The translations under genes were made by a program, and so were the position numbers. From contig LJHR01000015.1 of the NCBI GenBank assembly GCA_001296005.1, positions 62,001-126,000 on the forward strand: DNA of 64,000 nucleotides. The letters run 5' to 3'. How positions within the stretch are numbered: position 1 is the first letter of the stretch; every line of letters begins with the position of its first letter. This stretch comes from an alpha proteobacterium AAP38. Its GTDB lineage: Bacteria; Pseudomonadota; Alphaproteobacteria; Azospirillales; Azospirillaceae. Positions 1,561 to 39,027 of this stretch are shown piece after piece. Below the pieces are notes generated by a model, which saw nothing but the letters and a program-made list of their open reading frames with translations, was not told where the DNA came from and did not search any database.

Positions 1561-1675
1561 ACCAAATCCCGATGAGTAGAACTCATCGGGATTTGGTTCG
1601 GCGGCGACTGCCGCCGCGCGGCCCATGCCGCGTGAGCCAAGCCGCCGGATGGCGGCGCCCGGCGCCTGAGGGAAA
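1561..1675 (+). repeat. Four-hairpin intergenic repeat, copy R1 (complete)
   Basis: H0 is ACCAAATCCCGATGAGT (1561-1577) paired perfectly with 1581-1597 over a 3-base loop. H1 is GGCGGC-GACT-GCCGCC at 1600-1615. H2 is CGCGGC-CCAT-GCCGCG at 1617-1632. H3 is GCCGCC-GGAT-GGCGGC at 1641-1656. The tail GCCCGGCGCCTGAGGGA runs to 1673. H0 starts two bases after the XRE stop codon and may act as its terminator. Related copies lie at 6052, 9476, 10899, 11357, 21626, 28766 and 38970. Confidence 0.9.
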
Positions 1676-1686
1676 ACATCACACAC

Positions 1687-1714
1687 AAAAGCCCCGGCGG
1701 TGATCCGCCGGGGC
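1687..1714 (-). terminator. Terminator of the exported low-complexity protein gene
   Basis: On the minus strand GCCCCGGCGG (1705-1714 side) pairs perfectly with the complement at 1691-1700 over a 4-base loop, and is followed by a T run (A run at 1687-1690 on the plus strand). It lies about 60 bases past the stop of the gene at 1771-2427. Confidence 0.75.
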
Positions 1715-1770
1715 CTTCGTGCGTTCGGGACGTCGGGGTGGGGCGCATTTTCCCAACGCCCTGCCCGCCT

Positions 1771-2427
1771 TTACGGGGTCTTGGTGGTCTTCACGTCGGC
1801 GCTGGCCTTGGCATCGGCCTGAACGGCGGCCTTCACCGCCGGTTCCGGCGTCACGGCGGGGGCCGGCTGGCCTTGCGTGGACTTGGTCTCCGGCTTGGTG
1901 TCGGTCTTGGCGATGGCCGCGTCCTTGGCCGCATCGGCCTTGCCGGCCAGGGCGACGGGGGTGGCCGTGGCCTGCGCCGCGCCGGTCTGTGCGGCGCTGG
2001 TGACGCCATCCTTGGCCTGGGTGGCCGTACCCGCCACGCTGTCCTTCACGGCGCTGCCGGTGGCGGCGGCCTGGCTGGCGGTGCTGGTCACGGTGCCGGT
2101 GGCAGCATCCTTGGCGGTGCCCACCTCCGTCGTGGCCTTGCCCGTGGTGGCGGTGCCGGTTTCCTTGGCCTTGGCGGCGGCGCGTTCGGCGCGGGTCGTG
2201 GCGGTCTGGTGCAGATGGCTGCCGGTGCCGCGGACGCTGTCCAGCGTGGAGGCGCCGTTGAGGCCGCCCTGGCCCCCGGCGGTGCCGCCCAGCGTGGCAC
2301 CGGCCACGCCGCCCACGGTTCCGCCCAGACCAGCAGCACCATTGCCGCCACCCACCAGCTGTGCCTGCGCGGCGCCGGTCAGCAGGGCCACGGTCAGACC
2401 GGTCATCAGCATCACCTTGCTACGCAT
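1771..2427 (-). CDS. Exported Ala/Thr/Gly-rich low-complexity protein
   Basis: This encodes 218 residues. A signal peptide is clear (MRSKVMLMTGLTVALLTGAAQA, cleavage near 22-23). It is followed by a Gly-rich stretch at about 25-55, then a long Ala/Thr/Lys segment with loosely repeated TAKDAATGTVTS-like and AVKDSVAGTATQAKDG-like units, and a Pro/Lys-rich end. The composition resembles LEA-like or surface-stress proteins, but I recognise no family. A GGAGG ribosome site precedes the ATG. No partner gene is adjacent on the same strand. It might be a desiccation protectant or an envelope spacer; both are guesses. Confidence 0.7.
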   Translation of the reverse strand: MRSKVMLMTGLTVALLTGAAQAQLVGGGNGAAGLGGTVGGVAGATLGGTAGGQGGLNGASTLDSVRGTGSHLHQTATTRAERAAAKAKETGTATTGKATTEVGTAKDAATGTVTSTASQAAATGSAVKDSVAGTATQAKDGVTSAAQTGAAQATATPVALAGKADAAKDAAIAKTDTKPETKSTQGQPAPAVTPEPAVKAAVQADAKASADVKTTKTP

Positions 2428-2645
2428 TCTATCCTCCGCGTTTCATTCCGTTGGGGGCTGTCACCGTCGGCTCCATCGTCCCCCGACATCCTCATAAAAC
2501 CGCGTCCGCATGGCGGATGCTGGACCGACAAGGGGCGGAGTACGGGAATTTCCAGGACATTTCCGCGTCATCTCGGGCGCGGTCCCGCCATAATCCGGCA
2601 GCCCGCGCCACGATCCGGTCACGAACCCTTTCCCCCTGGATAAAT

Positions 2646-2699
2646 TGATATTGATTCTCACCCGCATTCTAAATATGGATATTGCGAGTGGTTCGCAAT
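2646..2699 (+). promoter_or_regulatory. Two Fur-type operators upstream of the TonB receptor
   Basis: TGATATTGATTCTCA at 2646-2660 matches the classical 7-1-7 Fur pattern at about 13 of 15 positions. A second site at 2681-2699 is ATTGCGA-GTGGT-TCGCAAT, a perfect 7-5-7 inverted repeat like Fur boxes of many Proteobacteria. The region between is AT-rich and could hold the promoter. The rest of 2428-2645 shows no supported feature beyond the minus-strand ribosome site at 2428-2440. Confidence 0.65.
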
Positions 2700-2720
2700 T
2701 GCAGTTGGGAGTGTGGGATT

Positions 2721-4931
2721 GTGACTTGCCGGAATATGACGGCCTTGCCTCTGGTTCTGTTGGCCCTGGCCGCCCCTGTGGGCGCGCAGGATGTGCAGGT
2801 GGCTGACGCTGCGGATATGCAGGTCAGTGAGATCACGGTGATCGCCACCCGCACGCCCAAGGAAACGGTGGAGGCTCCGGCCACTGTCAGCGTGATCGGC
2901 GCCGAGAAGGTGAGGGACCGGCTGGTCACCGATATCAAGGACCTGATCCGGCATGAACCCGGCGTCTCTGTCCGATCCTCCCCCACCCGTTTCACCGCCG
3001 CCGGCGCCAATACGGGCCGCGATGGCAACAGCGGGTTCAATATCCGGGGGCTGGAGGGCAACCGCGTCCTGATCCAGACCGATGGCATCCGCGCGCCCGA
3101 CGCCTTTGCCTTTGGCGGGCAATCGGTGGGGCGCGGCGATTATGTCGATCTGGACCTGCTGAAATCGGTCGAAATCCTGCGCGGCCCCGCATCGGCCCTG
3201 TATGGCTCCGACGGTCTTGCCGGTGCCGTCAGCTTCGTCACCAAGGACCCGGTCGATTTCATCCAGGGCGACAAGGCCTATGGCGGAGAGGTGAAGGCCG
3301 GTTACAGCGAGGCAGATCGCGGCTGGGGCAAGGGCGTGGTCCTGGCCGGCAAGGCGGGCGACTGGTCGGCCATGCTGGCCTATAACCGCCGCGACACGCA
3401 CGAGACGGAGAATAAGGGCGCGATCAAGACCGCCAACAGCACCCGCACCGCGCCCAATCCGCAGGACATTGCCGATAACTCGGCCCTGGCCAAGCTGGTC
3501 TGGCAGCCGACATCCGAACATACACTGCGCCTGACCTATGAGCTGTTCGACCATGATATGGAGGCCGATGTCCTGACGGCCATCGCCGTACCGCCCCTGG
3601 CATCGACCAGCGTCATCGGTCTGAAGGCCCATGACACGGTGCGCCGCGACCGGGTCAGCCTGGATCACCGCTATGATCCCGCCGATGGCGGCGTCATCGA
3701 CAGCCTGCACTGGACGCTGTACCGCCAGGACAGCGACACGCGCCAATATTCCGCCGAAGACCGCAATACCGCCGCCGACCGTCTGCGCATCAACACCTTC
3801 GACAACAAGGTCACGGGCCTGAATGTCGATGCCAGCACGCAGATCAAGGGCGATGGCATCGACCATCTGCTGGTCTATGGCGGTGATTTCTCCCTGACCA
3901 GACAGCTGGGCACGCGCGACGGCACCGTGCCCCCGGCGGGGGAGACCTATCCCACCCGCGCCTTCCCCAGCACCGACCATACGCTGGCCGGCCTGTTCAT
4001 CCAGGATGAGGTAACGTTGCTGGGCGGGTCGCTGTCGCTCTACCCCGCCATCCGCTATGATTATTACAAGATCGATCCCAAGACCGATCCGCTGTTCGTG
4101 GGCACGGCCACCGGGCAGAGCGATGATCATTTCTCCCCCAAATTCGCGGCCCTCTATTGGCTGAACGACCATGCCGGCCTGTTCGCGAACTATGCGGAGG
4201 GGTTCAAGGCCCCCGCCCCGGCGCAGGTGAATAACGGCTTCGCCAACCCGTTGCAGAATTACCGCTCCATCTCCAACCCCGATCTGAAACCGGAAAGCAG
4301 CCGCACCGTGGAACTGGGCCTGCGTCTGCGCGGGGATGACTGGCAGGCGGCCCTGACCGGGTTCAAGGGCTGGTATGATGATTTCATCGAACAGGTGCTG
4401 GTGTCGGGCAATTTCACGGCCGCCAGCCCCGCCACCTACCAATATGTGAACCTGAACAAGGTGACGATCCGGGGGCTGGAGGCCAAGGCCAACTGGGATA
4501 TCGGCCAGGGTTTCGGCCTGATCGGCGGTGCCGCCTATGCCAAGGGTGATCAGGAAACCGCCGGCGTTAAGCGCCCGCTGGACAGTATCGACCCCGTCAA
4601 ACTGACATTGGGCGTCAGCTGGGAGGAACCGACCGAGGGGCGTTTCGGTGGCGATATCAGCGCCATCTATTCCGCGAAGAAATCCACGGGCCGCATCGGC
4701 AGCACCTGCACCGGCGGCTGTTTCGCGCCCGGCGATTTCATCGTGCTGGACGCGACCGCCCGCTGGCGCGTGACGGATTTCGCGACCCTGCGCGCCGGCC
4801 TCTTCAACATCACCGACCGGAAATACTGGTGGTGGAGCGATGTGCGCGGCCTGTCCGCCGGCTCCGCCATCCGCGACAGCTATACCCAGCCCGGCCGCAA
4901 TCTCAGCGCCTCGCTCACCGTCAGCTTCTAA
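2721..4931 (+). CDS. TonB-dependent hemoglobin/transferrin/lactoferrin-type receptor
   Basis: This is an outer-membrane active-transport receptor of about 736 residues. After a signal peptide (MTALPLVLLALAAPVGAQ) comes the TonB-box region QVSEITVIATRTPKE. The plug has NIRGLEGNRVLIQTDGIRAP and VEILRGPASALYGSDGLAGA. A long beta-barrel follows, ending ITDRKYWWWSDV...GRNLSASLTVSF with terminal Phe. The plug wording is that of the hemoglobin/transferrin/lactoferrin receptor subfamily. The start is uncertain: GTG 2721 with GGGAG upstream, or ATG 2736. Two Fur-like operators upstream imply iron repression. The DUF6607 gene follows after 10 bases, probably in one operon. Heme is the likeliest substrate, by family only. 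Confidence 0.92.
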   Translation: MTCRNMTALPLVLLALAAPVGAQDVQVADAADMQVSEITVIATRTPKETVEAPATVSVIGAEKVRDRLVTDIKDLIRHEPGVSVRSSPTRFTAAGANTGRDGNSGFNIRGLEGNRVLIQTDGIRAPDAFAFGGQSVGRGDYVDLDLLKSVEILRGPASALYGSDGLAGAVSFVTKDPVDFIQGDKAYGGEVKAGYSEADRGWGKGVVLAGKAGDWSAMLAYNRRDTHETENKGAIKTANSTRTAPNPQDIADNSALAKLVWQPTSEHTLRLTYELFDHDMEADVLTAIAVPPLASTSVIGLKAHDTVRRDRVSLDHRYDPADGGVIDSLHWTLYRQDSDTRQYSAEDRNTAADRLRINTFDNKVTGLNVDASTQIKGDGIDHLLVYGGDFSLTRQLGTRDGTVPPAGETYPTRAFPSTDHTLAGLFIQDEVTLLGGSLSLYPAIRYDYYKIDPKTDPLFVGTATGQSDDHFSPKFAALYWLNDHAGLFANYAEGFKAPAPAQVNNGFANPLQNYRSISNPDLKPESSRTVELGLRLRGDDWQAALTGFKGWYDDFIEQVLVSGNFTAASPATYQYVNLNKVTIRGLEAKANWDIGQGFGLIGGAAYAKGDQETAGVKRPLDSIDPVKLTLGVSWEEPTEGRFGGDISAIYSAKKSTGRIGSTCTGGCFAPGDFIVLDATARWRVTDFATLRAGLFNITDRKYWWWSDVRGLSAGSAIRDSYTQPGRNLSASLTVSF

Positions 4932-4941
4932 GGAACCCCCG

Positions 4942-5937
4942 ATGAACATATCCCTGAAAGCCGGTCTGACGGCTCTGGCTCTGCTGGCCGCCCTGCCCGC
5001 CACGGCCCAGGTCGATTGCGGCAAGCCCGACTGCACCGCCTTCAATGCCGACCGCGCCGCCATCCTGGCCATGGCCGGCACCTATCGCGTGAAGTTCGAC
5101 TTCAAGGAGACGGTGGCCATCGCCCCCGGTTATGAACCGATCGAGCCCAAGCGCAGCGGCGGGTTTGAGGCGGTGCGCGTGATCGAGGATACGGGCCGCA
5201 CCATCCGCTTGCAGCATCTGCTGGTCGTCAAGGATGAGGAGGATAAACCCTTCGTCATCAAGCATTGGCGCCAGGACTGGACTTATGAGCCGGAAACCGT
5301 CCTGACCTATGAAGGCCCCGACCAGTGGAAGCTGACGCCCGTGCCCGCCGCACAGCGCACCGACGCCTGGGCCCAGACCGTCTGGCAGACCGATGACAGC
5401 CCGCGCTATGGCGGGGTGGGCCAGTGGAAGCATGATCGCGGCGAACATCGCTGGATCAGCGGGGAGACGGGCCGCCCCCTGGCGCGGCGCGATGCCGTGC
5501 GCAAGCCGGTCTATGACCGTTACTATGGCACCAACCGCCATGCCCTGACGCATCAGGGCTGGGTGCATGAACAGGACAATGCCAAGGCCGGGATGCGCGA
5601 CGGCGCGCTGACCACCATCGTGCATGAGGTGGTGCTGAACAGCTACGTCCCCTCCACCGAGTTCGAGTTCCAGGCGGCAGACGATTACATGGCGAAGACC
5701 GCCACCTTCTGGGCCGCCGTGCGCAAACACTGGGACGACATCGCCGCCCGCCATGGCGGCATCCATCTGGTGCAGGAGGCGGAAAACGGCTCCAGCACGG
5801 GCAAGCAGCTCATGGAACTCGCCGGCAAGGTGGCGAAGGGAGAGATGGGAACGGCGGATGCCGTATCCCAGGCCCGCCACCTGATCACCGGCGCCACAGG
5901 ACCGGCCACCGCCATGGCCGGCGCGTCGCGGGGGTGA
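4942..5937 (+). CDS. DUF6607 family exported protein
   Basis: This encodes 331 residues with a signal peptide (MNISLKAGLTALALLAALPATAQ) and then CGKPDC. The body carries the hallmark pattern of DUF6607: YRVKFDFKETVAIAPGYEP, IRLQHLLVV, KHWRQDWTYEP, WQTDDSPRYGGVGQWKH, GRPLARRDAV and NRHALTHQGWVHEQDN. The ATG at 4942 is preceded by AAGGAACC and lies 10 bases past the TonB receptor stop, so co-transcription and shared Fur control are likely. Proteins of this family are often encoded next to heme/TonB receptors. Its biochemical role is unknown; a periplasmic or lipoprotein-like accessory in iron uptake is inference from position. Confidence 0.88.
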   Translation: MNISLKAGLTALALLAALPATAQVDCGKPDCTAFNADRAAILAMAGTYRVKFDFKETVAIAPGYEPIEPKRSGGFEAVRVIEDTGRTIRLQHLLVVKDEEDKPFVIKHWRQDWTYEPETVLTYEGPDQWKLTPVPAAQRTDAWAQTVWQTDDSPRYGGVGQWKHDRGEHRWISGETGRPLARRDAVRKPVYDRYYGTNRHALTHQGWVHEQDNAKAGMRDGALTTIVHEVVLNSYVPSTEFEFQAADDYMAKTATFWAAVRKHWDDIAARHGGIHLVQEAENGSSTGKQLMELAGKVAKGEMGTADAVSQARHLITGATGPATAMAGASRG

Positions 5938-5941
5938 CGCG

Positions 5942-6033
5942 CATCCGGGGGCCGGCGGTATTGCGCGCCGACCCCCGGATGGAATGCGAAAGGGACGGAC
6001 CAGCGGGGGTTGGTCCGTCCCTTTTGTATTTTT
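5942..6033 (+). terminator. Double hairpin terminator after the TonB receptor-DUF6607 operon
   Basis: CATCCGGGGG (5942-5951) pairs with 5972-5981. A second perfect 12-bp stem (AGGGACGGACCA at 5991-6002 with 6011-6022, 8-base loop) runs into a T-rich tract at 6022-6033, giving a strong intrinsic terminator. Confidence 0.85.
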
Positions 6034-6051
6034 GGGCCACTGACCCACCGA

Positions 6052-6154
6052 CCAAGGGGCACCATGCCCCTTGGAGGCCAGCGACCGCTGGCCCGCGGGC
6101 CCATGCCCGCGCAAGCCAAGGCGGCGGATGCCGCCGCCCGGCGCTTGAGGGAAC
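6052..6154 (+). repeat. Four-hairpin intergenic repeat, copy R2 (complete)
   Basis: H0 is CCAAGGGGC-ACCAT-GCCCCTTGG at 6052-6074. H1 is GGCCAGC-GACC-GCTGGCC at 6076-6093. H2 is CGCGGGC-CCAT-GCCCGCG at 6094-6111. H3 is GGCGGC-GGAT-GCCGCC at 6120-6135. The tail GCCCGGCGCTTGAGGGAAC is at 6136-6154. The H1, H2 and H3 stems differ from copy R1 on both sides while the loops are the same or nearly so. The tail ends six bases before the rlmN stop codon on the opposite strand. Confidence 0.92.
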
Positions 6155-6160
6155 GTGATG

Positions 6161-7360
6161 CTAAAGCGCCAGCGCCGCTTCCTTCGCCGCGATCTGGGCA
6201 GCGTATTCGGCAGCAAGCAGCTTGCTCTGCTCCAGTTGCCCCGCACGCTGGGCGGCGCTGGGCCGCTGGCTTTCGCTTTTCAGCTGGCCACAGGCGGCCA
6301 GGATGTCGTCGCCACGCGGGCGGCGGATGGGGCTGGCATAGCCGGCCGCGTTCACATAATCGCTGAATTTCTCGATCTGGTCCCAATCGCTGCGCTCGAA
6401 CGGCGAGCCGGGCCAGGGATTGAACGGTATCAGGTTGATCTTGGACGGGATGTCCCGGATCAGGCGGACCAGCTCGCGGGCATCCGCCATGCTGTCATTG
6501 ACGCCCTTCAGCATGACATATTCCCAGGTGCAGCGCCGGGCATTGTTCAGGCCCGGATAATTGCGCACCGCATCCATCAATTCCTTGATCGGGTATTTGC
6601 GGTTGATGGGCACGATCCGGTCGCGCAGCTCGTCATTCACAGCATGCAGGCTGACGGCCAGATTCACGCCCAGCTCCTCGCCCGCCTTCTTCATCATGGG
6701 CACGACACCGCTGGTCGACAGGGTGATGCGGCGCTTGGAGATGGAGATGCCTTCCCCATCCATGATGATCTTCAACGCCTTGGCGACGTTATCGTAGTTA
6801 TAAAGCGGCTCGCCCATGCCCATCATGACGATGTTGGACAGCATGCGGCCATCGGGCGGGCTGGGCCATTCTTCCAGATGGTCGCGGGCCAGCATCACCT
6901 GCCCCACAATCTCATCCGCCGTCAGGTTGCGCACCAGACGCTGCGTGCCCGTGTGGCAGAAGCGGCAGGTAAGCGTGCAGCCCACCTGGGAGGAGACGCA
7001 CAGCGTGCCGCGATCTTCCTCCGGGATGTGGACGGCCTCCACCTCCTGCCCGTCATGGAACCGGCACAGCCATTTGCGCGTGCCATCGACGGATTTCAGG
7101 TCCTTCACGGGCGTCGGACGGTCGACCACGAAATGCTCGGCCATCTTCTCGCGCGCCGGCTTGGCCAGCGTCGACATCAGCGCGAAATCGGTGACGCCGC
7201 GATGATAGATCCAGTGCCAGACCTGGCGCGCCCGGAACTTCTCGAATCCGGCGTCGACCAGCGTGCTTTCCAGCTCTTCGCGGGAAAGGCCGACAAGGTT
7301 GATCCGACCGTCGGTGCGGGCCGCCGGCGCGAAATTGCTGCTGTGATTTTCGATGCCCAT
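6161..7360 (-). CDS. rlmN: Dual-specificity rRNA/tRNA adenine-C2 methyltransferase RlmN
   Basis: This 399-residue radical-SAM enzyme methylates C2 of A2503 in 23S rRNA and A37 of certain tRNAs. The [4Fe-4S] motif CTLTCRFC sits at residues 128-135 (C128, C132, C135), followed by [20 protein letters not shown]. The glycine-rich SAM segment [17 protein letters not shown] is present, as is the C-terminal [12 protein letters not shown], whose Cys is the methyl-carrying residue. The start at 7360 (MGIENHSS) was chosen because family homology begins there and the upstream in-frame extension is not protein-like. No good Shine-Dalgarno is seen. The gene stands alone, with copy R2 immediately beyond its 3' end. 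Confidence 0.96.
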
Positions 7361-7662
7361 GATCGGCTGTAGATGACGCAAGCCGGCCCCGCTGGCAAGG
7401 GGGCTTGCCGCCGGGGGTGGCTTGCAGGGGACGCAAGCAGGCCCATAACCCGACCAAGCCCCGACGAATGGCCTATGCCCTTTTTGTAAGAACACACACC
7501 CTTTGTTTTTAGGCGCCTTTAAATAAATTCCTCTTAGAAACAATAGCACCGATGTCGTTACCCTATGCGCAGGGTCAGCTGGACAAAGGTGAAAATTGCT
7601 CCATCTTCGGCCATGCTATGGCCATGAGCTGTTTCCAGGTTCCATTTCAGGTTTCCATACAA
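7361..7662. other. Intergenic region between rlmN and a small exported protein gene
   Basis: The region holds several CTTGC/GCAAG inverted repeats (7378-7384 with 7402-7408; 7420-7425 with 7433-7438) and an AT-rich block at 7500-7545 that may hold promoters for the divergent genes. No tRNA cloverleaf or convincing ORF is seen. Confidence 0.5.
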
Positions 7663-7974
7663 ATGTTCCCCCGCCACATCATTCCGGCATCACTTGCCGC
7701 GACCCTTCTGCTTGCTGCACCGCTTTTGGTCGCAGCCTCCGCCGTGCCGGCCACTGGCCGCACCCTGGCCGTCCTGCTGCCCCCGTGGCAGGGGACGGAC
7801 GCGCAGTTGGCCCGTTTGGCGGATACCGGTGTGACCTTGCGGGATGGCGGGCCGCTGGCCGGCCTGGGGCCACAGGTCTGGCTGGTGCAGGTGCCGGACC
7901 CGGACAGTGCGGCGCGCCTGTCACGCCTGCCGGCCTTGCTGCTGTCGGGCGCGCTGGTCAATTGCGGCACCTGA
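7663..7974 (+). CDS. Small exported or membrane-anchored protein of unknown function
   Basis: This encodes 103 residues from the ATG at 7663: MFPRHIIPASLAATLLLAAP forms a signal or anchor segment. The mature part (TGRTLAVLLPPWQGTDAQLA, then GVTLRDGGPLAGLGPQVWLVQVPDPDSAARLSRLPALLLSGALVNCGT) looks compact and ends with a Cys near the C-terminus. No ribosome site is obvious, and an earlier ATG at 7624 is possible. The chemoreceptor gene begins 36 bases downstream, so the two may be co-transcribed. I do not recognise the family. It could contribute to sensing by that receptor, which has no periplasmic domain of its own, but that is speculation from adjacency. Confidence 0.5.
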   Translation: MFPRHIIPASLAATLLLAAPLLVAASAVPATGRTLAVLLPPWQGTDAQLARLADTGVTLRDGGPLAGLGPQVWLVQVPDPDSAARLSRLPALLLSGALVNCGT

Positions 7975-8009
7975 AAACAACGATCACGTAACAGGGAGTT
8001 CACCACCCG

Positions 8010-9470
8010 ATGTCCCCCATCGACCGTATCCGTTCCGCAGCATTGACCCTGTTCGTGGTCTTTCTCTGGGTGTGTGTGCCCCTGACGCTGGTCACTCTGA
8101 TCCGGGGGGAGGTGAGCTGGCTGACGCCGCTGGTCCTGTCGGCCCTGATCGCCGGCATCGGCACGGGTGCCTATGTCACACGCATGGCGCGGCCCGCTGT
8201 CGATTACCTGATCGCGATGCTGGCCATCGGGCAGGTGTCGGTGGTGGTCGCGGCATCGGCGGGGCCGTGGCAGATCGATGCGCATTTCCTCTATTTCGCG
8301 GTCCTGGCCATGCTGACCGCCTTCTGCAACTGGCGCGTCATCCTGGTCGCGGCGGGGGTGACGGCGGTGCATCACCTGACGCTGTCCTTCCTGCTGCCGT
8401 CGCTGGTCTTCCCCGACGGTCAGGGCAGCCTGCTGCGCGTCATCGTGCATGCCATCGTGGTGGTGGTTGAAACGGGCGTGCTGCTCTGGCTGTCCTGGAA
8501 CCTGGAGAAATCCTTCCTCTATTCCGAAGCCGCCCGCGCCAAGGCCGAAGAGGCCGTGGTTGAAACCGAACGGCTGCGCGAACAGCAGATGCAGGCCGCC
8601 GAGACGCAGCGGGCCGAGCGTGTGGCCCTGCGCAAGGGGCTGGCCGACCGTTTCGTCGTCGATGTCGAAAGCATGACCCGCCGCCTGGACGCCGCCGTAC
8701 GCGGCCTGCGCGAAGAGGCGGACCTGCTGGGCCGTTCCGTGGCCAGCACTGGTGAGATGACGGGCGAGGCACGGGCCGAAGCGGATGAGGCCACGGGCCA
8801 CGCTACCGCCGTCGCGGCGGCTGTGGAGGAAATGGCCGCCAGCATCGCGGAGGTCGCCCGCACCGCCAGCGGCGCCGCTGCCCAGGCGCGCGGCACGGCG
8901 CATGAGGTGGGGCGCGTACGGGAAAGGGTGGCCGAACTGTCGGATACCGCCGCCCGCATCGGCAGCGTGGTGCAGCTGATCGCCGATATCGCCGGACAGA
9001 CCAACCTGCTGGCACTGAACGCTACCATCGAGGCGGCACGCGCCGGAGAGGCCGGCAAGGGCTTTGCCGTCGTGGCATCGGAGGTCAAGAGCCTGGCCAC
9101 CCAGACGGGCCGCGCGACGGAGGATATCAGCCGTCAGGTGGCCGAGATCCAGGCCGCCACCCGCGCCGCCGTGGACGCCATCGCCAGCGTGGCCGATGCC
9201 GTGACGGCGCTGGACAGCGGGGCCGGCGAAATTTCCGACGCGGTGCAGCAGCAGGAAGCGACGGTCCTGGAAATCAGCCGGTCTATCCAGACCGTCTCCT
9301 CCCGCACCGCCTCGCTGGGCATCACCGTCTCCCGCATGGCCGACATGGCCGGCGGCATCGCCGATGCCGTGGCCAAGACCAACAGCACCGCCGAAGACGC
9401 CGAACGCCTGTCCGGCGACATGCATGACCGTCTGGAAGGCTTCATCCACGACCTGCGCGACGCGTCCTAG
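8010..9470 (+). CDS. Methyl-accepting chemotaxis protein with multi-helix membrane sensor
   Basis: This encodes 486 residues. The N-terminal 165 residues form about five or six membrane helices with very short loops, so there is no periplasmic ligand domain. A charged coiled coil follows ([20 protein letters not shown]). The cytoplasmic signalling domain has the conserved hairpin tip at roughly 323-370 ([40 protein letters not shown]). Receptors of this type pass signals to CheA/CheW. No che genes are in the window. The C-terminus FIHDLRDAS lacks a CheR-tethering pentapeptide. An intramembrane sensor of redox state, light or membrane conditions is a possible reading. The reverse copy R3 starts six bases after its stop. 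Confidence 0.93.
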
Positions 9471-9475: not shown

Positions 9476-9552
9476 GTTCCCTCAGGCGTCGGGCGCCGCC
9501 GTCCGGCGGCTTGGCTTGCGCCGCATGGGCGGCGGGCCGGCAGTCGCCGGCC
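9476..9552 (-). repeat. Four-hairpin intergenic repeat, copy R3 (reverse, lacks H0)
   Basis: Read on the minus strand: H1 GGCCGGC-GACT-GCCGGCC (9535-9552), H2 CGCCGC-CCAT-GCGGCG (9519-9534), H3 GCCGCC-GGAC-GGCGGC (9495-9510), then the tail GCCCGACGCCTGAGGGAAC (9476-9494). The tail starts six bases after the chemoreceptor stop codon. No H0 stem is visible beyond 9552. Stem changes are compensated on both sides relative to R1 and R2. Confidence 0.9.
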
Positions 9553-10898: not shown

Positions 10899-10942
10899 GA
10901 AAGCCAAGGGCGCGGATGCGTCCGCCCGGCGCTTGAGGGAAC
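10899..10942 (+). repeat. Four-hairpin intergenic repeat, copy R4 (H3 plus tail only)
   Basis: H3 is GGGCGC-GGAT-GCGTCC at 10908-10923, with one G-T pair, followed by GCCCGGCGCTTGAGGGAAC at 10924-10942. It fills the whole gap between two convergent stop codons. Confidence 0.85.
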
Positions 10943-11356: not shown

Positions 11357-11463
11357 CCAAGGGTCACTTTCCGTGACCCTTGGAGGCCAGCGACCGCTGG
11401 CCCGCGCACCCATGTGCGCGTGAAGCCAAGCTGCCGGAGGCAGCGCCCGGCGCTTGAGGGAAC
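11357..11463 (+). repeat. Four-hairpin intergenic repeat, copy R5 (complete)
   Basis: H0 is CCAAGGGTCAC-TTTCC-GTGACCCTTGG at 11357-11383. H1 is GGCCAGC-GACC-GCTGGCC at 11385-11402. H2 is CGCGCAC-CCAT-GTGCGCG at 11403-11420. H3 is GCTGCC-GGA-GGCAGC at 11430-11444. The tail GCCCGGCGCTTGAGGGAAC is at 11445-11463. It ends nine bases from the stop codon of the lysyl-tRNA synthetase gene on the other strand. Confidence 0.92.
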
Positions 11464-20611: not shown

Positions 20612-21625
20612 ATGTCCGCCCCCCTCGACCTGTCCTACAGCCCTGAAGTGGCCGAGGCCACCAAGCCGATCTATGACCGGGTCAAGGGCGTGATCCCGGA
20701 GGTGGAATGGCCCTTCCATGCCCCGTTGGTGGCCGCCATCAACCGGCTGAAGAAAGAGCGCAACGCCGTCATCCTGGCCCATAACTATCAGGCGCCGGAG
20801 ATTTTCCACACCGTGGCCGACATCGTGGGCGACAGCCTGCTGCTGGCCCGCAAGGCCGCCGAAACCGATGCCGATGTCATCGTCCTGGCCGGCGTGCATT
20901 TCATGGCGGAGACGGCGAAGATTCTGTCGCCGGAAAAGACCGTGCTGATGCCCGCCATGGATGCCGGCTGCTCGCTGGCCGACAGCATCACCGCCGCCGA
21001 TGTCCGCCTGCTGCGCGAACGCTATCCGGGCGTGCCCATCGCCACCTATGTCAACACATCCGCCGCCGTGAAAGCCGAAAGCGATGTCTGCATTACCTCG
21101 GGCAACGCGGTGGAGGTGATCAATTCCCTGCCCGGTGACGAGGTCCTGTGCATTCCCGATGAGTATCTGGCCAAATGGGTGGCGACCCAGACGACCAAGA
21201 AGGTCATCGCCTGGAAGGGCCATTGCGAGGTGCATGAGCGCTTCACGGGTGAGCAGTTGCGCGCCTACCGGACCCAATTCAAGGGCGACATCACCATCAT
21301 CGCCCACCCTGAATGCCCGCCTGACGTGCTGGCGGAGGCGGATTTCGTCGGGTCCACCGCCAAGATGCAGGATTATGTGGAGGGCCAGCAGCCCAAGCGC
21401 GTGCTGCTGATCACCGAATGCTCCATGGCCGACAATCTGGCGGCCACCAACCCGGCGGTCGAATTCGTCCGCCCCTGCAACCTCTGCCCGCATATGCGCC
21501 GCATCACCCTGTCGAACATCCTGGAAAGCCTGCAAACTATGCAGCCCCAGGTCCATGTCGACCCCGCCATCGCCGGCCGCGCGCGGCAAGCGGTGGAGCG
21601 GATGCTGGAAGTTGGCAAGAAGTAA
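20612..21625 (+). CDS. nadA: Quinolinate synthase A
   Basis: This encodes 337 residues. NadA condenses iminoaspartate with dihydroxyacetone phosphate to quinolinate using a [4Fe-4S] cluster. The family signatures [63 protein letters not shown] and RPCNLCPHM are all present, supplying the three conserved cluster cysteines. It is the first gene of a nadA-nadB-nadC operon, behind the two palindromic operators. The ATG at 20612 has a modest GGAG upstream. Repeat copy R6 starts directly after its stop. Confidence 0.97.
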
Positions 21626-21665
21626 GCCAAGCCGCCGGACGGCGGCGCCCGGCGCCTGAGGGAGC
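21626..21665 (+). repeat. Four-hairpin intergenic repeat, copy R6 (H3 plus tail), inside nadAB
   Basis: H3 is GCCGCC-GGAC-GGCGGC at 21631-21646, followed by GCCCGGCGCCTGAGGGAGC at 21647-21665. It begins with the first base after the nadA stop. The tail's GAGGGAG lies 8 to 14 bases before the nadB ATG and can serve as its ribosome-binding site. Confidence 0.88.
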
Positions 21666-24216: not shown

Positions 24217-24669
24217 ATGCGTCTTCTGCGCGGCGTTCTGTTCGGTTTGATCCTGTCGGGCCTTACGGCCCCGGCCGCCCTGGCGCAGAACACCATCAGT
24301 GCGACCGATGTTGCATCCTTCATCACACAGTACCAACAGGCGTTCCAGACCTGCGATGTGCAAGTTCTGCGTGGCCTGATGGGCGACCAGATGACAGGGA
24401 TGGGCATGCGGGGCGGTCTGGCCAGGGGGCCGGATGTCGATGATTTCCAGAAACAATGCGACCAGGGCTTCAAATTCGCCCTGAATTTTGAACGGCTGCA
24501 TGATGAGGGGCTGGGACCGACCCACCATTTGGTCGTGGGCAAAGCCAGCGGCACCGTCACAGCCCCAAATGGCAAGACGGTCCCCACCAATATCAAATTT
24601 TCCTGGGTCCTGACACGGCAAGGCAACAGGGTGGTGGTGATGCACTCGCACCTGTCAGCGCTGATGTAA
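24217..24669 (+). CDS. Exported NTF2/SnoaL-like small protein
   Basis: This encodes 150 residues. The signal peptide is MRLLRGVLFGLILSGLTAPAALAQ. The mature part has the layout of a SnoaL/NTF2-like cone fold: an N-terminal helix ATDVASFITQYQQAFQTCDVQVLRGLM, then strands such as GPTHHLVVGKASGTVTA and IKFSWVLTRQGNRVVVMHSH. GGGTGGGAATGGG precedes the ATG. No catalytic residues can be named. It converges on the aminomutase gene with a 4-base gap, and no operon partner is seen. Confidence 0.65.
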   Translation: MRLLRGVLFGLILSGLTAPAALAQNTISATDVASFITQYQQAFQTCDVQVLRGLMGDQMTGMGMRGGLARGPDVDDFQKQCDQGFKFALNFERLHDEGLGPTHHLVVGKASGTVTAPNGKTVPTNIKFSWVLTRQGNRVVVMHSHLSALM

Positions 24670-28765: not shown

Positions 28766-28880
28766 AATTGGCCCCAAAATATCATGGGTCCAATTCCCAC
28801 TGTTTTCGGCGGCGACTGCCGCCGCGCGGCCCATGCCGCGTAAGCCCGAGCTGCGGACGCAGCGCCAGCGATTGAGGAAA
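28766..28880 (+). repeat. Four-hairpin intergenic repeat, copy R7 (degenerate tail)
   Basis: H0 is an imperfect stem (AATTGG at 28766-28771 with CCAATT at 28790-28795, and CCC/GGG inside). H1 is GGCGGC-GACT-GCCGCC at 28808-28823. H2 is CGCGGC-CCAT-GCCGCG at 28825-28840. H3 is GCTGC-GGAC-GCAGC at 28850-28863. The tail has decayed to GCCAGCGATTGAGGAAAA. It ends 12 bases before the stop of the antiporter gene on the opposite strand. Confidence 0.85.
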
Positions 28881-28892
28881 ATGAAAGGATGC

Positions 28893-31697: not shown

Positions 31698-31722
31698 AAT
31701 CCGTAAACCATATTTCAACGGT

Positions 31723-31755
31723 TGGTCGCCTAAATGAGGGGGCGACCATCCTTTT
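31723..31755 (+). terminator. Terminator between ibpA and DUF1150
   Basis: TGGTCGCC (31723-31730) pairs perfectly with GGCGACCA (31741-31748) over 10 bases and is followed by TCCTTTT. It would reduce read-through into the DUF1150 gene. Confidence 0.65.
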
Positions 31756-31802
31756 GGCCCTGCCATACGCAAGCAGGGAAATGACGTGGAGTTTGCGGGG
31801 AC

Positions 31803-32021: not shown

Positions 32022-32033
32022 TCGGCGGGTGTC

Positions 32034-33485: not shown

Positions 33486-33565
33486 GAAGCACATCGGGCG
33501 GCGGGACGAGATCGGCAGGATAGCGCGTGACCCGTCACCGCCGCCAGTGCTTCGGCCTTTGCCGG

Positions 33566-34147
33566 TCAGGCCTTGGGCGCGTGCTTGTTCAGGATGCGCT
33601 GCAAAGTGCGGCGGTGCATCTTCAGCCGGCGGGCGGTTTCGGAGACATTGCGGTCGCACTGTTCAAACACGCGCTGGATATGTTCCCAGCGCACCCGGTC
33701 GGCGGACATCGGGCTTTCCGGTGGCGGCGGCAGGGGGCCATCGGTCAGCAGCGCTGCTTCCACGGCATCGGCATCCGCCGGCTTGGGCAGGTAATCGACG
33801 GCGCCGAACTTCACGGCGGCGACGGCGGTGGCGATATTGCCGTACCCGGTCAGCACAACCACGCGGGCCTCCGGCCGCGCATCGCGCAGGGCCTTGACCA
33901 CATCCAGGCCCGACCCGTCGCCCAGGCGCAGATCAACGACGGCGAAGCGCGGCGCGCTTTCATGCGCCACCTCGATCCCCAGATTGACGCTATCGACAGC
34001 GACCACATCGAAGCCGCGCCGTTCCATGGCGCGGGCCAGCCGGGTGCGGAAGGGCGCATCATCATCCACGATCAGCAGCGAGCGCGAGGCATCGCCCGTG
34101 AAGGTCAGTTTCGGCTGTTCGCCGGCTTCCAGCGCCGCGTCCGTCAT
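33566..34147 (-). CDS. regA: Redox response regulator RegA/PrrA/ActR
   Basis: This encodes 193 residues. The receiver domain has LLIVDDDAPFRTRLARAMERRG, phospho-acceptor D72 in VDLRLGDGSGLDVV, VLTGYGNIATAVAAVKFGA and KPADADAV. A Pro-rich linker follows, then the Fis-type DNA-binding domain CDRNVSETARRLKMHRRTLQRILNKHAPKA, whose recognition helix is the strongly conserved RegA/ActR/PrrA sequence. These regulators control respiratory, photosynthetic and nitrogen-related genes in response to redox. Its kinase regB lies 52 bases upstream. Confidence 0.96.
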   Translation of the reverse strand: MTDAALEAGEQPKLTFTGDASRSLLIVDDDAPFRTRLARAMERRGFDVVAVDSVNLGIEVAHESAPRFAVVDLRLGDGSGLDVVKALRDARPEARVVVLTGYGNIATAVAAVKFGAVDYLPKPADADAVEAALLTDGPLPPPPESPMSADRVRWEHIQRVFEQCDRNVSETARRLKMHRRTLQRILNKHAPKA

Positions 34148-34199
34148 GGTTCCGGAGTCCCTTCTTCGATTGGGCGTTCTTTTTAGATCACAAAACTTT

Positions 34200-35540
34200 C
34201 TACACGGTGAATGTAGGATGTTTCCAGCGAATGACCACCACGGCACCGCCAGCCCTGCCATTCATATAGCGAACGGACGCGCCGGATCGTTCCAGCAGGG
34301 TCTGTGCGATGAACAGGCCCAGGCCCATATTGCCCGCCGCCTCCCGCGCTGCCGGGTTGCGCCCGCTGACATAGGGTTCGCCCAAACGCCCCACGACGGT
34401 GGCGGGATAGCCCGGCCCGTCATCCTGCACCGTCAGGGTCAGCCCGGGGGCCGTCCAGTCCGCTGTCACCGTCACCTGTTCGCTGGCGAACTGCATGGCG
34501 TTCTGAAGGATATTGGCCAGCCCATGCACCATTTCCGGCACCGATTGCACCTGTGGCGCACCATCCTCCGGCTCTGCCACGGTTTCGATCTTCAGCTCGA
34601 TGCCGTGGCGGACATAAGGCGCCGCCGTCGTTTCGATCAAGGCGGCCAGGGGCACGATCGGTTCCGCCCCGCCCGTGTCGCCGGGCCGGCGCGACAGTTC
34701 GGCCAGGATGTCTCGGCACCGCGCCACCTGGCTTTGCAGCAGGGCGACATCCTCGGCGATCGGGCTGTCGGGCGGGATATCGCGGGCCAGTTCCTTGGCC
34801 ACCACGGCAATGGTGCCCAGCGGACTGCCCAGCTCATGCGCCGCCGCCGCCGCCAGGGCACCGACGGCAGAGGCCCGCTGTGCCCGCGCCAGGGCATCCT
34901 GGCTGGCATTCAAGGCACCTGACAGACGCCGCGCCCCGTCCGCCACCTGATAAAGATATGCGGCGATGAAGCCCGCCGACAGGGTCAGCGCCGCCCAGAC
35001 CCCGAACCGGTAGAGTGGCGGTAGACCCGCCGGCTCCACCCCCGGCCAGGGCAGCGGCATGGCGACCAGGGCTAGGCCCGTGAAGCAGCAGACGGCCAAG
35101 GCCGCCAGCAGGATCACCGCCGCCCGGCCCAGCGTGCTGGCCGCCACAGTCAGCGGCGCCAGCATCAACACGGCAAAGGGGTTATCCAGGCCGCCCGTGA
35201 GATAGAGCAGTACCGTGAGCTGCACCATGTCATAGGCCAGATACAGTGCGGCCTCCCGGTCATCCAGGAACGGATGGGCCGCCACCCGCCGCGCGGCGTA
35301 GAGGTTGACCAGCACCGACACGGCCACGCCGGCCAGGGCATGGGCCAGCGCCAGTTCGAATTCGAACAGGGCCATGACGGTGGTCAGGGTCGCGAACTGC
35401 CCGGCCACCGCGATCCAGCGGATGGTGATCAGGGTGCGGGCACTGACCCGCCCCTCGGCGGCGGCAAGGGCCGGGCCGGAACGTCCACCCTGAATCACAC
35501 CGACACTACTGGTGGCACTATTGGTGATTGCGTCGCTCAT
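34200..35540 (-). CDS. regB: Redox sensor histidine kinase RegB/PrrB/ActS
   Basis: This encodes 446 residues. Six membrane helices occupy about 38-200. The quinone-sensing loop GGLDNPF is at 116-122. The phospho-acceptor His is H235 in AAAAAHELGSPLGTIAV, and the redox-active cysteine is C275 in SQVARCRDILAEL. The ATPase domain has NILQNAMQFA, DDGPGYP and NMGLGLFIAQTLLERSG. The start ATG 35540 or 35546 is unsettled. It is transcribed towards regA; the ABC ATPase gene is divergent across 89 bases. Confidence 0.96.
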   Translation of the reverse strand: MSDAITNSATSSVGVIQGGRSGPALAAAEGRVSARTLITIRWIAVAGQFATLTTVMALFEFELALAHALAGVAVSVLVNLYAARRVAAHPFLDDREAALYLAYDMVQLTVLLYLTGGLDNPFAVLMLAPLTVAASTLGRAAVILLAALAVCCFTGLALVAMPLPWPGVEPAGLPPLYRFGVWAALTLSAGFIAAYLYQVADGARRLSGALNASQDALARAQRASAVGALAAAAAHELGSPLGTIAVVAKELARDIPPDSPIAEDVALLQSQVARCRDILAELSRRPGDTGGAEPIVPLAALIETTAAPYVRHGIELKIETVAEPEDGAPQVQSVPEMVHGLANILQNAMQFASEQVTVTADWTAPGLTLTVQDDGPGYPATVVGRLGEPYVSGRNPAAREAAGNMGLGLFIAQTLLERSGASVRYMNGRAGGAVVVIRWKHPTFTV

Positions 35541-35629
35541 CCCCATATCCCATGCTCTTGAACGTCCCGCCCGGAAGGAGCAGAGGGCAATCTAGTTCCC
35601 CCCCAGCAGAAAGACCATAAGCCGTTCCC

Positions 35630-36394
35630 ATGCCGTTGGATGTCCCCCGTACCGCCATTGCCGCCATCCAGGTCGATCTGCTGACCAAAAGGTTCGACGC
35701 ACATACCGCGCTGGACGCCATCAGCTTCGAGGTGCCGGCGGGTGGAACGGTGGCGCTGCTGGGTGGCAATGGGGCGGGCAAGACCACCACCATCTCCATC
35801 CTGCTGGGGCTGTTGCTGCCGACATCGGGCACGGTGCGGGTGCTGGGTCATGACATGTTGACGGAACGCTACCGCGTGCTGCCGCGCATGAATTTCTCCA
35901 GCCCCTATGTCGACCTGCCCCACCGCCTGACCGTGCGGGAGAACCTGACCGTCTATGGCCATCTCTATGGCCTGACGCATCTGAAGGACCGGATCGCCCG
36001 CATCGCCGACGAACTGGACCTAACCACCATCCTGAACCGCCCGTCGGGCAACCTGTCGGCGGGGCAGAAGACGCGCGTGGCGCTGGCGAAGGCCTTGCTG
36101 AACGACCCGGAACTGCTGCTGCTGGATGAACCGACGGCCAGCCTGGACCCCGATACTGCCGATTGGGTGCGCGGCTTCCTGGAACGCTACCGCGCCCGCA
36201 CCAAGGCCACCATCCTGCTGGCCAGCCACAATATGGCGGAGGTGGAGCGGCTATGCGATGGCGTGCTGATGATGAAGGGCGGACGCATCGTGGATCGGGG
36301 CACCCCCGCCGATCTTCTGTCCCGCTATGGCCGCGACAATCTGGAGGAGGTTTTCCTCGACATTGCCCGGGATCGGCGTCAGGCGGCGGGGTGA
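35630..36394 (+). CDS. ABC transporter ATP-binding protein (ABC-2 exporter type)
   Basis: This encodes 254 residues. Walker A is GGNGAGKTT at about 46-54, the signature is LSAGQKTRVALAKALL, Walker B is LLLLDEPTASLDPDTAD, and the switch His is in LLASHNMAEVERLCDG. The C-terminus resembles ATPases of ABC-2-type exporters. No permease gene is adjacent: upstream is divergent regB and downstream chvG converges after 6 bases. The partner must be elsewhere or the protein works alone. No ribosome site is obvious. Confidence 0.93.
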   Translation: MPLDVPRTAIAAIQVDLLTKRFDAHTALDAISFEVPAGGTVALLGGNGAGKTTTISILLGLLLPTSGTVRVLGHDMLTERYRVLPRMNFSSPYVDLPHRLTVRENLTVYGHLYGLTHLKDRIARIADELDLTTILNRPSGNLSAGQKTRVALAKALLNDPELLLLDEPTASLDPDTADWVRGFLERYRARTKATILLASHNMAEVERLCDGVLMMKGGRIVDRGTPADLLSRYGRDNLEEVFLDIARDRRQAAG

Positions 36395-36400
36395 TCGCCT

Positions 36401-38134
36401 CTACCGCGGCAGCACCACCGTAAACCGCGCGCCCTGGACCGTGCCATCCGCGCCCTTGATATTGCCCGCGAAAATCCGGCCCTGATGGGCGTCGATGATC
36501 TGTTTGGAGATGGACAGGCCCAGGCCGGAATGTTTGCCAAACGCTTCCGACTTGGGCCGCTCGCTGTAGAAACGGTCGAAGATGGCGTCCAGCTTGCCCT
36601 CCGGGATGCCCGGCCCCTGATCCTCACACGTGATCTCCACCCGGTCGGGCAGGGACCGCACCTTGAACCGCACCACCCCGCCGGGCGGGGAAAAGGACAG
36701 CGCGTTCGACAGCAGGTTCTGGAACACCTGGGTCAGGCGGCCCTCCAGCCCGGGCACGACCAGCCCGGACTTGGTGTTGGGCATCTCCACCTCCACCCGG
36801 ACCGGGGCGGACGCGTCGCTGACCTCCCCGCCAGCCTCCGCTGCCGCTTCACGCAGGGCTTCGGCATTGCCCAGGGTGGCATCATGGATATTGGCCAGCA
36901 TGGTCAGCATCTGGCCCACATCCGCCGGTTCGGCGCGTGCACGCGACAGTTCGGCATCCAGGCGACTGGCATTGGAGATATCGCTGATCAGCCGGTCCAG
37001 ACGCTGCACATCATGGTGGATGATGGACAGAAGCCGCTGACGCTGCTCATCGGTCTTCACACGCTGCACCGTCTCTACGGCACTGCGCATGCTGGTCAGT
37101 GGGTTCTTGATCTCATGCGCCACATCGGCGGCAAAGCGCTCGATGGCATCCATGCGGTTCCAGATGGCATCCGTCATCTCCCGCAGGCTGCCCGACAGAT
37201 CCCCCACCTCGTCCCGGCGGCGGGAGAAATCGGGGATGGTGACCTGCCGTCCATGGCCATGGCGCACCTCGTCGGCGGCCTGGGCCAGACGGCGGATGGG
37301 CCGGGCGATGGTGCCCGCCAGATAGAAGGACAGCAGCACCGTCACGCCCAGCGTGATGGCGAACAGGCGCAAGATATCCATGCGGAATTCCCGCACGGCC
37401 ACATCCACCGCCTTGCCCGAGCGCGAGATATAAACGGCCCCCAACACCTTCTTATAGCGCTGCACAGGCACCGCCACCGTCAGCACCATGTCGGAACGGC
37501 CATCGGCCCGGCCGATGCGCCAGACATTATTGCCGACCTCGCCCGCCAGGGCCTTCATCACGTCGGTATAGCTCTCCGCCGTCGGGTCCTTCTCGCTGGG
37601 ATAGGCTGGCAGATGCTCACGCTCCGGCACGGCATTGACGATGTAATCATAGATGGCGATGCCGATCTCGGTCAGGCGGTTGCCGTCGCGCATCGGCGGC
37701 AACTCTTCGATCTGCACCGTCCCCTTCGGCCCGCCCAGCACGCGGCTGTCGGCGATCAGTTCGCCATTGGGCGCGAACAGGCGGGTACGGGTGTCGGTGG
37801 TTTCCACCAGACGCCGCACCATCTGCCGCGCCAGTTCATAGGAGAGCTGGTTGGTCGGCTCGTTGAACTCGTCCGTCGCAGGCTGCATGGCACCTTCGCC
37901 CAAGGCACCGGCGAAGATTTTCGCCTCCGTCGACAGGGCCGACAGTTCCTTGTCGATCAGCCATTGCTGATAGGTGGACAGGTAGAGCAGGCCCCCCAGC
38001 AGGATGGCCAGCGCCAGCATATTGACCGCCAGGATGCGCAGCGTCAGGGGCGAGAAATGCCGCACCCGCCGCCGGGCGGGCGTTTCCGCCGCTGCCTTCC
38101 CGCCGCCAGCCTTGTCGCCGAACGGGCGTTCCAC
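36401..38134 (-). CDS. chvG: Envelope-stress sensor histidine kinase ChvG (ExoS/BvrS)
   Basis: This encodes 577 residues. Membrane helices near 29-52 and about 268-290 flank a periplasmic sensor domain containing TNQLSYELARQMVRRLVETT and VQRYKKVLGAVYISRSG. HAMP follows, then the dimerisation domain with FAADVAHEIKNPLTSMRSAV and an ATPase domain NLLSNALSFSPPGG, DQGPGIPEG, FGKHSGLGLSISKQIIDAH. This is the acid and envelope-stress kinase conserved through alphaproteobacteria. chvI lies 3 bases upstream. The usual hprK/ptsN genes do not follow; an ABC gene converges instead. Confidence 0.95.
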   Translation of the reverse strand: MERPFGDKAGGGKAAAETPARRRVRHFSPLTLRILAVNMLALAILLGGLLYLSTYQQWLIDKELSALSTEAKIFAGALGEGAMQPATDEFNEPTNQLSYELARQMVRRLVETTDTRTRLFAPNGELIADSRVLGGPKGTVQIEELPPMRDGNRLTEIGIAIYDYIVNAVPEREHLPAYPSEKDPTAESYTDVMKALAGEVGNNVWRIGRADGRSDMVLTVAVPVQRYKKVLGAVYISRSGKAVDVAVREFRMDILRLFAITLGVTVLLSFYLAGTIARPIRRLAQAADEVRHGHGRQVTIPDFSRRRDEVGDLSGSLREMTDAIWNRMDAIERFAADVAHEIKNPLTSMRSAVETVQRVKTDEQRQRLLSIIHHDVQRLDRLISDISNASRLDAELSRARAEPADVGQMLTMLANIHDATLGNAEALREAAAEAGGEVSDASAPVRVEVEMPNTKSGLVVPGLEGRLTQVFQNLLSNALSFSPPGGVVRFKVRSLPDRVEITCEDQGPGIPEGKLDAIFDRFYSERPKSEAFGKHSGLGLSISKQIIDAHQGRIFAGNIKGADGTVQGARFTVVLPR

Positions 38135-38137
38135 CCC

Positions 38138-38836
38138 TTATTCCTTATACTTATAACCAACGCCGTACAGCGTCTCGATCTGCTGGAAATCGTCGTCCAC
38201 GACCTTGAACTTCTTGCGCAGGCGCTTGATGTGGCTGTCGATGGTGCGGTCATCGACATAGATATGCTCGCCATAGGCGGCATCCATCAGCTGATCGCGG
38301 TTCTTCACATGGCCGGGACGGATGGCCAGCGCCTTGACCAGCAGGAATTCGGTGACCGTCAGGTCGATCTCCTTGCCCTTCCAGGTGCAGAGATGGCGGG
38401 CGCCATCCAGCACCAGCTCGCCGCGCACCAGGGTCTGGCCCGGATCGGGGGCCGTGCCCTTGCCCTGCGCCAGCTCAGTCCGGCGCAGCAGGGTCTTGAT
38501 GCGCTCGATCAGCAGGCGCTGGCTGAACGGCTTCTTGATGTAGTCGTCGGCCCCCATGCGCAGGCCCTGCAGCTCGTCCGTCTCATCATCCTTGGAGGTC
38601 AGGAAGATGATGGGCATCTGCGTGGTCTGGCGCAGGCGCTGCAGCAGCTCCATCCCGTCCATGCGCGGCATCTTGATGTCCAGCACGGCCATGTCAACGG
38701 GGCGGGAGGTGATGCCGCGCAGCGCCTCGTCACCGTCGCCATAGGTGCGAACCTCATAGCCTTCGGCTTCCAGCGCGATGGACACGGACGTCAGGATGTT
38801 GCGGTCGTCATCGACCAGGGCGATCACTTGGGACAC
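38138..38836 (-). CDS. chvI: Response regulator ChvI (ExoI-type, OmpR family)
   Basis: This encodes 232 residues from a GTG at 38836 with GGAG upstream. Receiver: [23 protein letters not shown], phospho-acceptor D53 in [38 protein letters not shown]. The winged-helix output domain has [17 protein letters not shown] and [18 protein letters not shown], ending YGVGYKYKE, all matching ChvI closely. It heads the chvI-chvG operon. In many rhizobia pckA lies divergently next to chvI; here it is about 5 kb away. Confidence 0.96.
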
Positions 38837-38969
38837 GCTTCTTCTCCAGCCTGCGGGCGCTCTCTTCGGTATTACTTCCGAAGGACCGGCTTTGCCAAAT
38901 CCAACTGCCCTTTCAATATGTCATCAATGCGGCGCGGGGAAGTGTCGTGACGACATAGAACGGCCTTAA

Positions 38970-39027
38970 GACGAATGGTGAGCGTGTCTGACCATTCGTC
39001 AGGTCGGCGCCCGGCGCCTTAGGGAAC
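38970..39027 (+). repeat. Four-hairpin intergenic repeat, copy R8 (H0 plus tail only)
   Basis: GACGAATGGT (38970-38979) pairs perfectly with 38991-39000, and is followed by a version of the tail, GCCCGGCGCCTTAGGGAAC, ending at 39027. H1 to H3 are missing. The tail runs straight into a perfect 13-base tandem duplication (TAGGGAACAAGAA) at 39020-39032 and 39033-39045 before the HugZ-like gene. Confidence 0.75.

Follow-up and report, generated by a model that had tools for sequence, protein, structure and literature searches.

We analyzed a 64,000-nucleotide stretch of the alpha proteobacterium AAP38 (assembly GCA_001296005.1, contig LJHR01000015.1, positions 62,001 to 126,000), referred to here as the window, that contains dispersed copies of a hairpin-rich repeat. 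These repeats very probably make up a family of non-autonomous DNA transposons of the miniature inverted-repeat transposable element (MITE) kind, non-coding and folded into hairpins at their core. The core consists of three hairpins (H1-H2-H3), the linker AAGCCAAG, and the tail TGAGG. Complete copies, about 144 to 160 bp long, start with TACC[A/G] and end with [C/T]GGTA. Their terminal inverted repeats are imperfect, and the same TNA triplet usually flanks them on both sides. The hallmarks of a MITE are found together in this element: terminal inverted repeats, a target duplication with an empty site, small size, lack of a transposase gene, and dispersal at high copy number. Because the copies in the window are eroded, the kind of element was identified with the help of copies that other genomes preserve better; in none of the window copies are both ends recognizable, so that the terminal inverted repeats, the target duplication, and an additional downstream hairpin (H5), seen by eye in some copies, are invisible in the window itself. 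An initial annotation of the window had considered a MITE-like or repetitive extragenic palindromic (REP)-like mobile element; the MITE form is supported by the inverted repeats, the 3-bp duplication, and two comparisons of filled and empty sites, and the REP form is unsupported in view of the absence of Y1 transposases described below.

The target duplication was seen at two sites and in the statistics of the ends. In the sister genome G006, whose lysS protein is 99% identical, a 158-bp element at locus L182 is flanked by TAA on both sides, and the orthologous window site holds a single TAA at 24667 to 24669 on the forward strand, the stop codon of a predicted gene at 24217 to 24669. At locus L223, a G006 copy is flanked by TTA on both sides, whose counterpart in our genome, G009, G007, and G003 is one triplet only, TTA or TCA. 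A scan of the fetched DNA for TNA-TACC[A/G]...[C/T]GGTA-TNA at 135 to 165 bp gave 16 non-redundant TNA-flanked end pairs, 13 of which agree in the middle base of the triplet (permutation mean, 6.6; p=1.5e-4). Over the first 16 bases of the terminal inverted repeats, 10 to 15 match in 13 distinct pairs with the same flank (144 to 160 bp). The copies of G077 are near-identical to one another, as are those of G078, and they diverge at the TACC and GGTA ends; in G078, four complete copies have a length of exactly 144 bp. A TA duplication of the IS630-like kind was considered and rejected, as in our reading the aligned empty sites favor TNA. An earlier listing of 22 end pairs from 239 matches held a few assignments that were wrong on inspection, and the conclusions drawn here rest on the 16 pairs and on a set of 226 distinct copies.

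Two kinds of ends occur. Type-A copies carry the TACC ends, and type-B copies carry TAGAGC..GCTCTA around a related, slightly different core, which by eye has GCCGGCG, TGAGGAAAA, and an H3 that is often one pair shorter.

The core is conserved in its pairing and, at its unpaired positions, in its sequence. All of the stem variants and loops (H1 GACT or GACC, H2 CCAT, H3 GGA to GGAN) listed in the initial annotation are in the sequence, and the paired changes that it had noted by eye exceed the phylogenetic expectation against which it had asked for them to be held. Among 99 copies from 87 sources in our own genome (alignment A3, which leaves out weaker matches beyond the last fetched stretches), standard pairs fill 97.6% of stem cells, and both sides change in 15 of the 22 pairs, compared with 10.7 in shuffles. 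A second alignment, A8, comprised 133 rows from across the class, our genome included, of which the 127 distinct rows were compared with a tree-based null (FastTree tree, columns simulated independently with matched change counts, 40 alignments, G statistic with average product correction). Covariation at E<0.05 was found for 11 of the 2,701 column pairs tested, and each of these 11 is one of the 22 stem pairs, in an alignment that was fitted to the structure and so favors structure in this test; exactly at E=0.05 lie a twelfth stem pair and two pairs outside the stems (columns 0-15 and 2-17). The initial claim that structure, not sequence, is kept is therefore half right, since alongside the covarying stems there is sequence conservation, in other families too, of the loops, the linker, and the tail. 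The conserved unpaired parts are AAGCCAAG, CGGATG around the third loop, CGGCG, and TGAGG, and across the class the loops GACY and GGAT, the linker, and the tail are largely kept. At four G078 loci (L278, L281, L285, and L292), another palindromic repeat lies within the third hairpin, at the same point in all four. Read on the tail strand, G.T mismatches in the stems outnumber A.C mismatches by 48 to 24 (p=0.006) and by 29 to 10 (p=0.003), in sets that overlap and under a model that favors G.U. This excess weakly suggests that the strand as written is the folding one.

The strongest rival for the fold is mutational: template switching that copies one hairpin arm onto the other would produce paired changes that are neutral in an ordinary MITE. 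Such copying would account for the hairpin just upstream of the core, H0 (arm of at least 8, at most 1 mismatch), found in 70 of 99 copies of our genome, 14 of 26 in G006, and 18 of 43 elsewhere (2, 0, and 1 in shuffled sequence), whose palindromes differ from locus to locus yet pair well. Stem variants are also often exchanges of the two arms, and the tree-based null ignores coupled mutation. However, template switching leaves the conserved unpaired loops, linker, and tail unexplained, and the G.T/A.C asymmetry weakly suggests a selected strand. We regard this explanation as improbable, while granting it more weight than any other alternative.

The initial annotation would have been refuted by a genome-wide search without further copies, and that search, made with a covariance model, found the element in abundance. 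The model, R1, was built from six window copies and matches our genome at least 122 times at E<=1, with at least 110 of these at E<1e-4; only 150 of 11,531 candidates were scored, which makes these counts lower bounds. The copy numbers of relatives are likewise lower bounds in both surveys described here (59 relatives, with at most 81 candidates scored in each genome, and 386 genomes, with at most 12 in each), in which stricter filters lose weak matches. Among the relatives, every one of the 10 congeners has matches; elsewhere in the family 17 of 24 genomes do, and of the 24 genomes taken from other families of the class, 3 do. An even draw across the class gave matches in 33 of 386 alphaproteobacterial genomes from 18 families, our own and two congeners counted. 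An exact pattern scan returned 27 stretches, the carriers including Niveispirillum, Nitrospirillum, Azospirillum sp., Aerophototrophica, Roseomonas, Rubritepida, Sneathiella, and an Acetobacteraceae bacterium. The element also explains intergenic repeats in two plasmid records of Niveispirillum, at places where no gene is listed, in a table that lists genes only. Judging from the pattern scan and these plasmids, the genus of the window is probably Niveispirillum. Tandem arrays also occur: Azospirillum sp. RU38E has five units at 108 bp and three units at a second locus, and G322 has three units. In the arrays at L140 (6289 to 6799), L150 (4488 to 4772), and L271, most units are preceded by an H0 palindrome whose sequence is the same throughout a locus and particular to it.

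Copies turn over quickly between sister genomes, as shown by the comparison of syntenic loci that the initial annotation had recommended and that also yielded the two empty sites with one TNA. Over 840 kb of G006, 25 of our 99 copies could be paired, 3 more had unpairable flanks, and 71 had no matching flanks. At the 25 paired sites, by our reading, the G006 core is absent from 17, a remnant at 2, and present at 6, one of which is a fragment in both genomes. With respect to genes, 94 copies of our genome lie outside open reading frames (ORFs): 31 between convergent genes, 34 opposing both neighbors, 21 following both, and 8 between divergent genes, the last compared with 63 of 198 background gaps of at least 100 bp. 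These counts rely on a home-made gene caller, leave out the 5 of 99 copies that overlap ORFs, and take their background gaps from the same, partly overlapping loci.

A host-beneficial RNA element in 3' untranslated regions (3' UTRs), such as a signal for stability or processing that selection has spread, might show the same depletion between divergent genes, and the excess of G.T over A.C on the tail strand (in the overlapping sets and under the G.U-favoring model noted above) and the retention of the core across families fit it as well. The initial annotation had listed, besides a nucleoid site, a 3'-UTR RNA among the candidates. The sense-strand form of such an RNA is unsupported by orientation, which is unbiased, with more copies opposing both neighbors than following both; without a sense-strand bias, a 3'-UTR role is not needed to explain where the copies lie. 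The absence of 17 of 25 cores from the sister genome also argues against a beneficial signal, and a target duplication denotes insertion of DNA. This explanation is quite unlikely.

Location near gene ends may instead follow from the target of the MITE. The left end, TACC[A/G], is recognizable in 41 of the 226 distinct copies; 26 of these 41 are preceded by TNA, and 14 sit exactly on a predicted stop codon of the same strand, 7 TAA and 7 TGA. Both codons fit TNA, so a stop would be kept after insertion at either of them: duplication of TAA or TGA would rebuild the stop codon, and insertion at the gene end would be harmless or at least tolerated. The insertion itself would be carried out by a DDE-type transposase acting in trans with a 3-bp staggered cut at TNA. 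A reason for keeping the core may be that the strand reading TGAGG, whether single-stranded DNA or RNA, adopts a fold and is recognized in trans during mobilization. Taken together, these steps would describe a transposon family spread across the Alphaproteobacteria that needs a folded single-stranded core (DNA or RNA) and a still missing transposase for its mobilization, that finds safe targets in stop codons through the TNA rule, and that has the same kind of core joined to at least two kinds of ends. We offer this fuller scheme tentatively, as a possible but doubtful extension of the MITE assignment. The element would be a testable bacterial case of a MITE in which constraint acts on internal structure and not on the ends alone. 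A simple rule, a TNA target that includes TAA and TGA, would let an element enter a stop codon without harm. The element is also a marker for tracking down the missing alphaproteobacterial transposase.

Several observations weigh against the MITE assignment or its TNA rule. Three of the 16 end pairs differ in the middle base, and the duplication was seen directly at only two sites, both of them occupied by G006 copies and neither by a copy of the window genome. A third G006 comparison with like data, at a type-B copy (L193:1748), gave no clear duplication; more generally, a target duplication was looked for in type-B copies and none was shown, which confines the established duplication to copies with TACC ends. 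The shares of copies with recognizable ends are low, at 41 of 226 for the left and 35 of 226 for the right. Right ends are followed by TNA in 19 of 35 cases and fall exactly at an opposing stop in only 2 of 35. TAG is absent from the 14 stops, and it makes up 18 of the 117 predicted stops of the window, which is too few for its absence to prove by itself that TNA governs insertion at stops. Finally, no matching transposase was found in the two DDE families searched, PF01609 (DDE_Tnp_1) and PF13586 (DDE_Tnp_1_2), other transposase families not having been searched. PF01609 has 48 matches in six genomes, and the ends of the 30 that were examined reveal no cognate. PF13586 does not track the element: of the 17 genomes compared, all 7 that lack an element match have it, and so do 7 of the 10 carriers, a comparison of occurrence and not of ends.

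The details of the enzyme search are as follows. The sole PF01609 locus with nearby TACC and GGTA ends, L333, has them 2,081 bp apart around an apparent insertion sequence (IS) with other ends, and PF01609 has no match in the carrier G078. PF13586 has none in the carriers G000 (our genome), G078, and G077, and two of its 14 occurrences (G021 and G248) lie only below the family cut-off. Pairs of TACC..GGTA with equal TNA flanks at 600 to 4,000 bp number seven, with inverted-repeat scores of 5 to 9 of 16 and enclosed ORFs that are not convincing. The right end that stands alone at L337 of G078 resembles, by eye, a truncated copy with another palindrome next to it.

A different enzyme would be expected if the repeat were a palindrome of the REP or bacterial interspersed mosaic element (BIME) kind, moved by a REP-associated tyrosine transposase (RAYT) or another transposase of the Y1 (HUH) type. 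Like such repeats, the element has variable stems around conserved loops, intergenic positions near gene 3' ends, and tandem arrays, and our genome has one RAYT-like Y1 gene (L009, G000:C62:115758-119117, at about 1400 to 2010), as do 8 of the 31 carriers among the 59 relatives. However, the Y1 family (E<=0.001) is missing from all 10 other genomes of the genus, which hold from 14 to at least 81 copies of the element each, and from 23 of those 31 carriers. The Y1 gene of our genome is flanked by a different palindrome, GTAGGTCGCATGCG.., which by eye contains GTAG, and no GTAG-type head is present in the core consensus of the element. A 3-bp target duplication is not expected from Y1 transposition. 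We rejected a RAYT-mobilized REP because none of the 10 congeners has a Y1 transposase, and the palindrome at our own Y1 gene points the same way; the explanation is very unlikely. Least likely of all is the CcrM-associated intergenic repeat (CIR), known from Alphaproteobacteria and resembling the element in being intergenic and about 110 bp long with two arms and a linker in the part of the source consulted (PMC2229807), since GANTC occurs in 0 of 99 cores of our genome and in only 4 of 99 upstream and 5 of 99 downstream 45-nt flanks, and in 2 of 43 cores of other taxa, where it is not rare in the flanking hairpins (6 of 43 upstream and 11 of 43 downstream), and since the same part of that source lists CIR without terminal inverted repeats.

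Within the window, the MITE-like repeat occurs at the eight places reported initially. The tail is found at seven of them with at most 3 mismatches, compared with 0.27 expected from shuffles, and at the eighth (28807) the tail has diverged, yet the copy is recognizable. Five copies have complete H1-H2-H3-tail cores; two others are fragments of H3 and tail, and one is a relic with the tail and a hairpin in the H0 position. Four of the five complete cores went into model R1, leaving the core at 11385 as the sole independent model match in the window. An H0 fold adjoins the copies at 1561, 6052, and 11357.

All but one of the window copies lie on the forward strand. The first (1560 to 1675) has the left end TACCA at 1560, an H0 hairpin at 1561 to 1597, a core at 1599 to 1675, and no recognizable right end; its left end directly abuts the TGA (1557 to 1559) that closes a predicted ORF at 1368 to 1559. 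The second (6052 to 6154; H0 at 6052 to 6074, core at 6076 to 6154) lies between convergent predicted genes with its tail end 6 bp from the opposing stop, and the paired G006 site has no core. The third, a core on the reverse strand (9476 to 9552), is also between convergent predicted genes, 5 bp off the stop of a chemotaxis-receptor-like gene at 8010 to 9470. The fourth (approximately 10901 to 10942) is truncated to H3 and tail between two facing predicted stop codons, and it is truncated in G006 too. The fifth (11357 to 11463; H0 at 11357 to 11383, core at 11385 to 11463) lies 9 bp from the lysS stop; it is present in G005 and absent from G007, G009, and G003, and in G006 its site is occupied by a different, long palindromic repeat (CATCCCGGCG..). 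The reverse case was also seen, with the same long palindrome, CATCCCGGCG.., in the window genome at the site orthologous to the G006 element L194:19694.

The sixth copy (21624 to 21665), between nadA and a nadB-like gene, retains only H3 and tail; at this site G006 has H0-H1-H2-H3-tail and G007 has H1-H2-H3-tail. The TAA that stops nadA in the window overlaps TAAGCCAAG, a remnant of the element (21620 to 21630), and nadA of G006 stops at a TGA ahead of the intact element. The seventh (28807 to 28881) is a core without an adjoining H0 fold and is missing from the paired site in G006. The last place (38970 to 39027) has only the tail (39003 to 39027), preceded by a hairpin in the H0 position and without H1-H2-H3; it is most simply read as an internally deleted relic, because G006 has a core at the same site.

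We found no earlier description of the element in the open-license literature, as judged by titles and abstract openings, and no Rfam 15 family reaches its gathering score in the window. A permissive Rfam search of L140, L150, L091, and L040 gave three matches, all under gathering scores; one of them, rnk_pseudo (L091 1861 to 1954; E 0.12; 30.9 of 55 bits), covers part of a single copy at its downstream end and is not seen again at the other copies.

Among known systems, CIR of Caulobacter and other Alphaproteobacteria is like the element in its class, its intergenic sites, and its stem-loops with a linker, and carries GANTC; in contrast, the cores of our genome are without GANTC, and the element has inverted repeats and a target duplication, a comparison of descriptions and not of sequences (PMC2229807). 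The Correia/NEMIS, ERIC, and RUP MITEs resemble it in being short, non-coding, mostly intergenic, and structured, with terminal inverted repeats and a target duplication. Several bacterial MITE families, these three included, are recorded with TA at their termini (PMC2229807), whereas the target here is a 3-bp TNA. The element further differs from them in its covarying multi-hairpin core, found in 18 families of a class, and in that no cognate IS was found here. REP and BIME sequences with RAYT resemble it in their hairpins with conserved bases, their positions at gene 3' ends, and their tandem arrays, and are set apart by the target duplication and by the fact that 23 of 31 carriers have no Y1 transposase. 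The IS1031 group of IS5 makes a 3-bp TNA duplication of the same length and by the same rule as the element, although the two DDE families tested showed neither matching ends nor co-occurrence. BOX elements of Streptococcus pneumoniae differ in sequence, host, and ends, and are likewise modular, with a variable number of internal modules.

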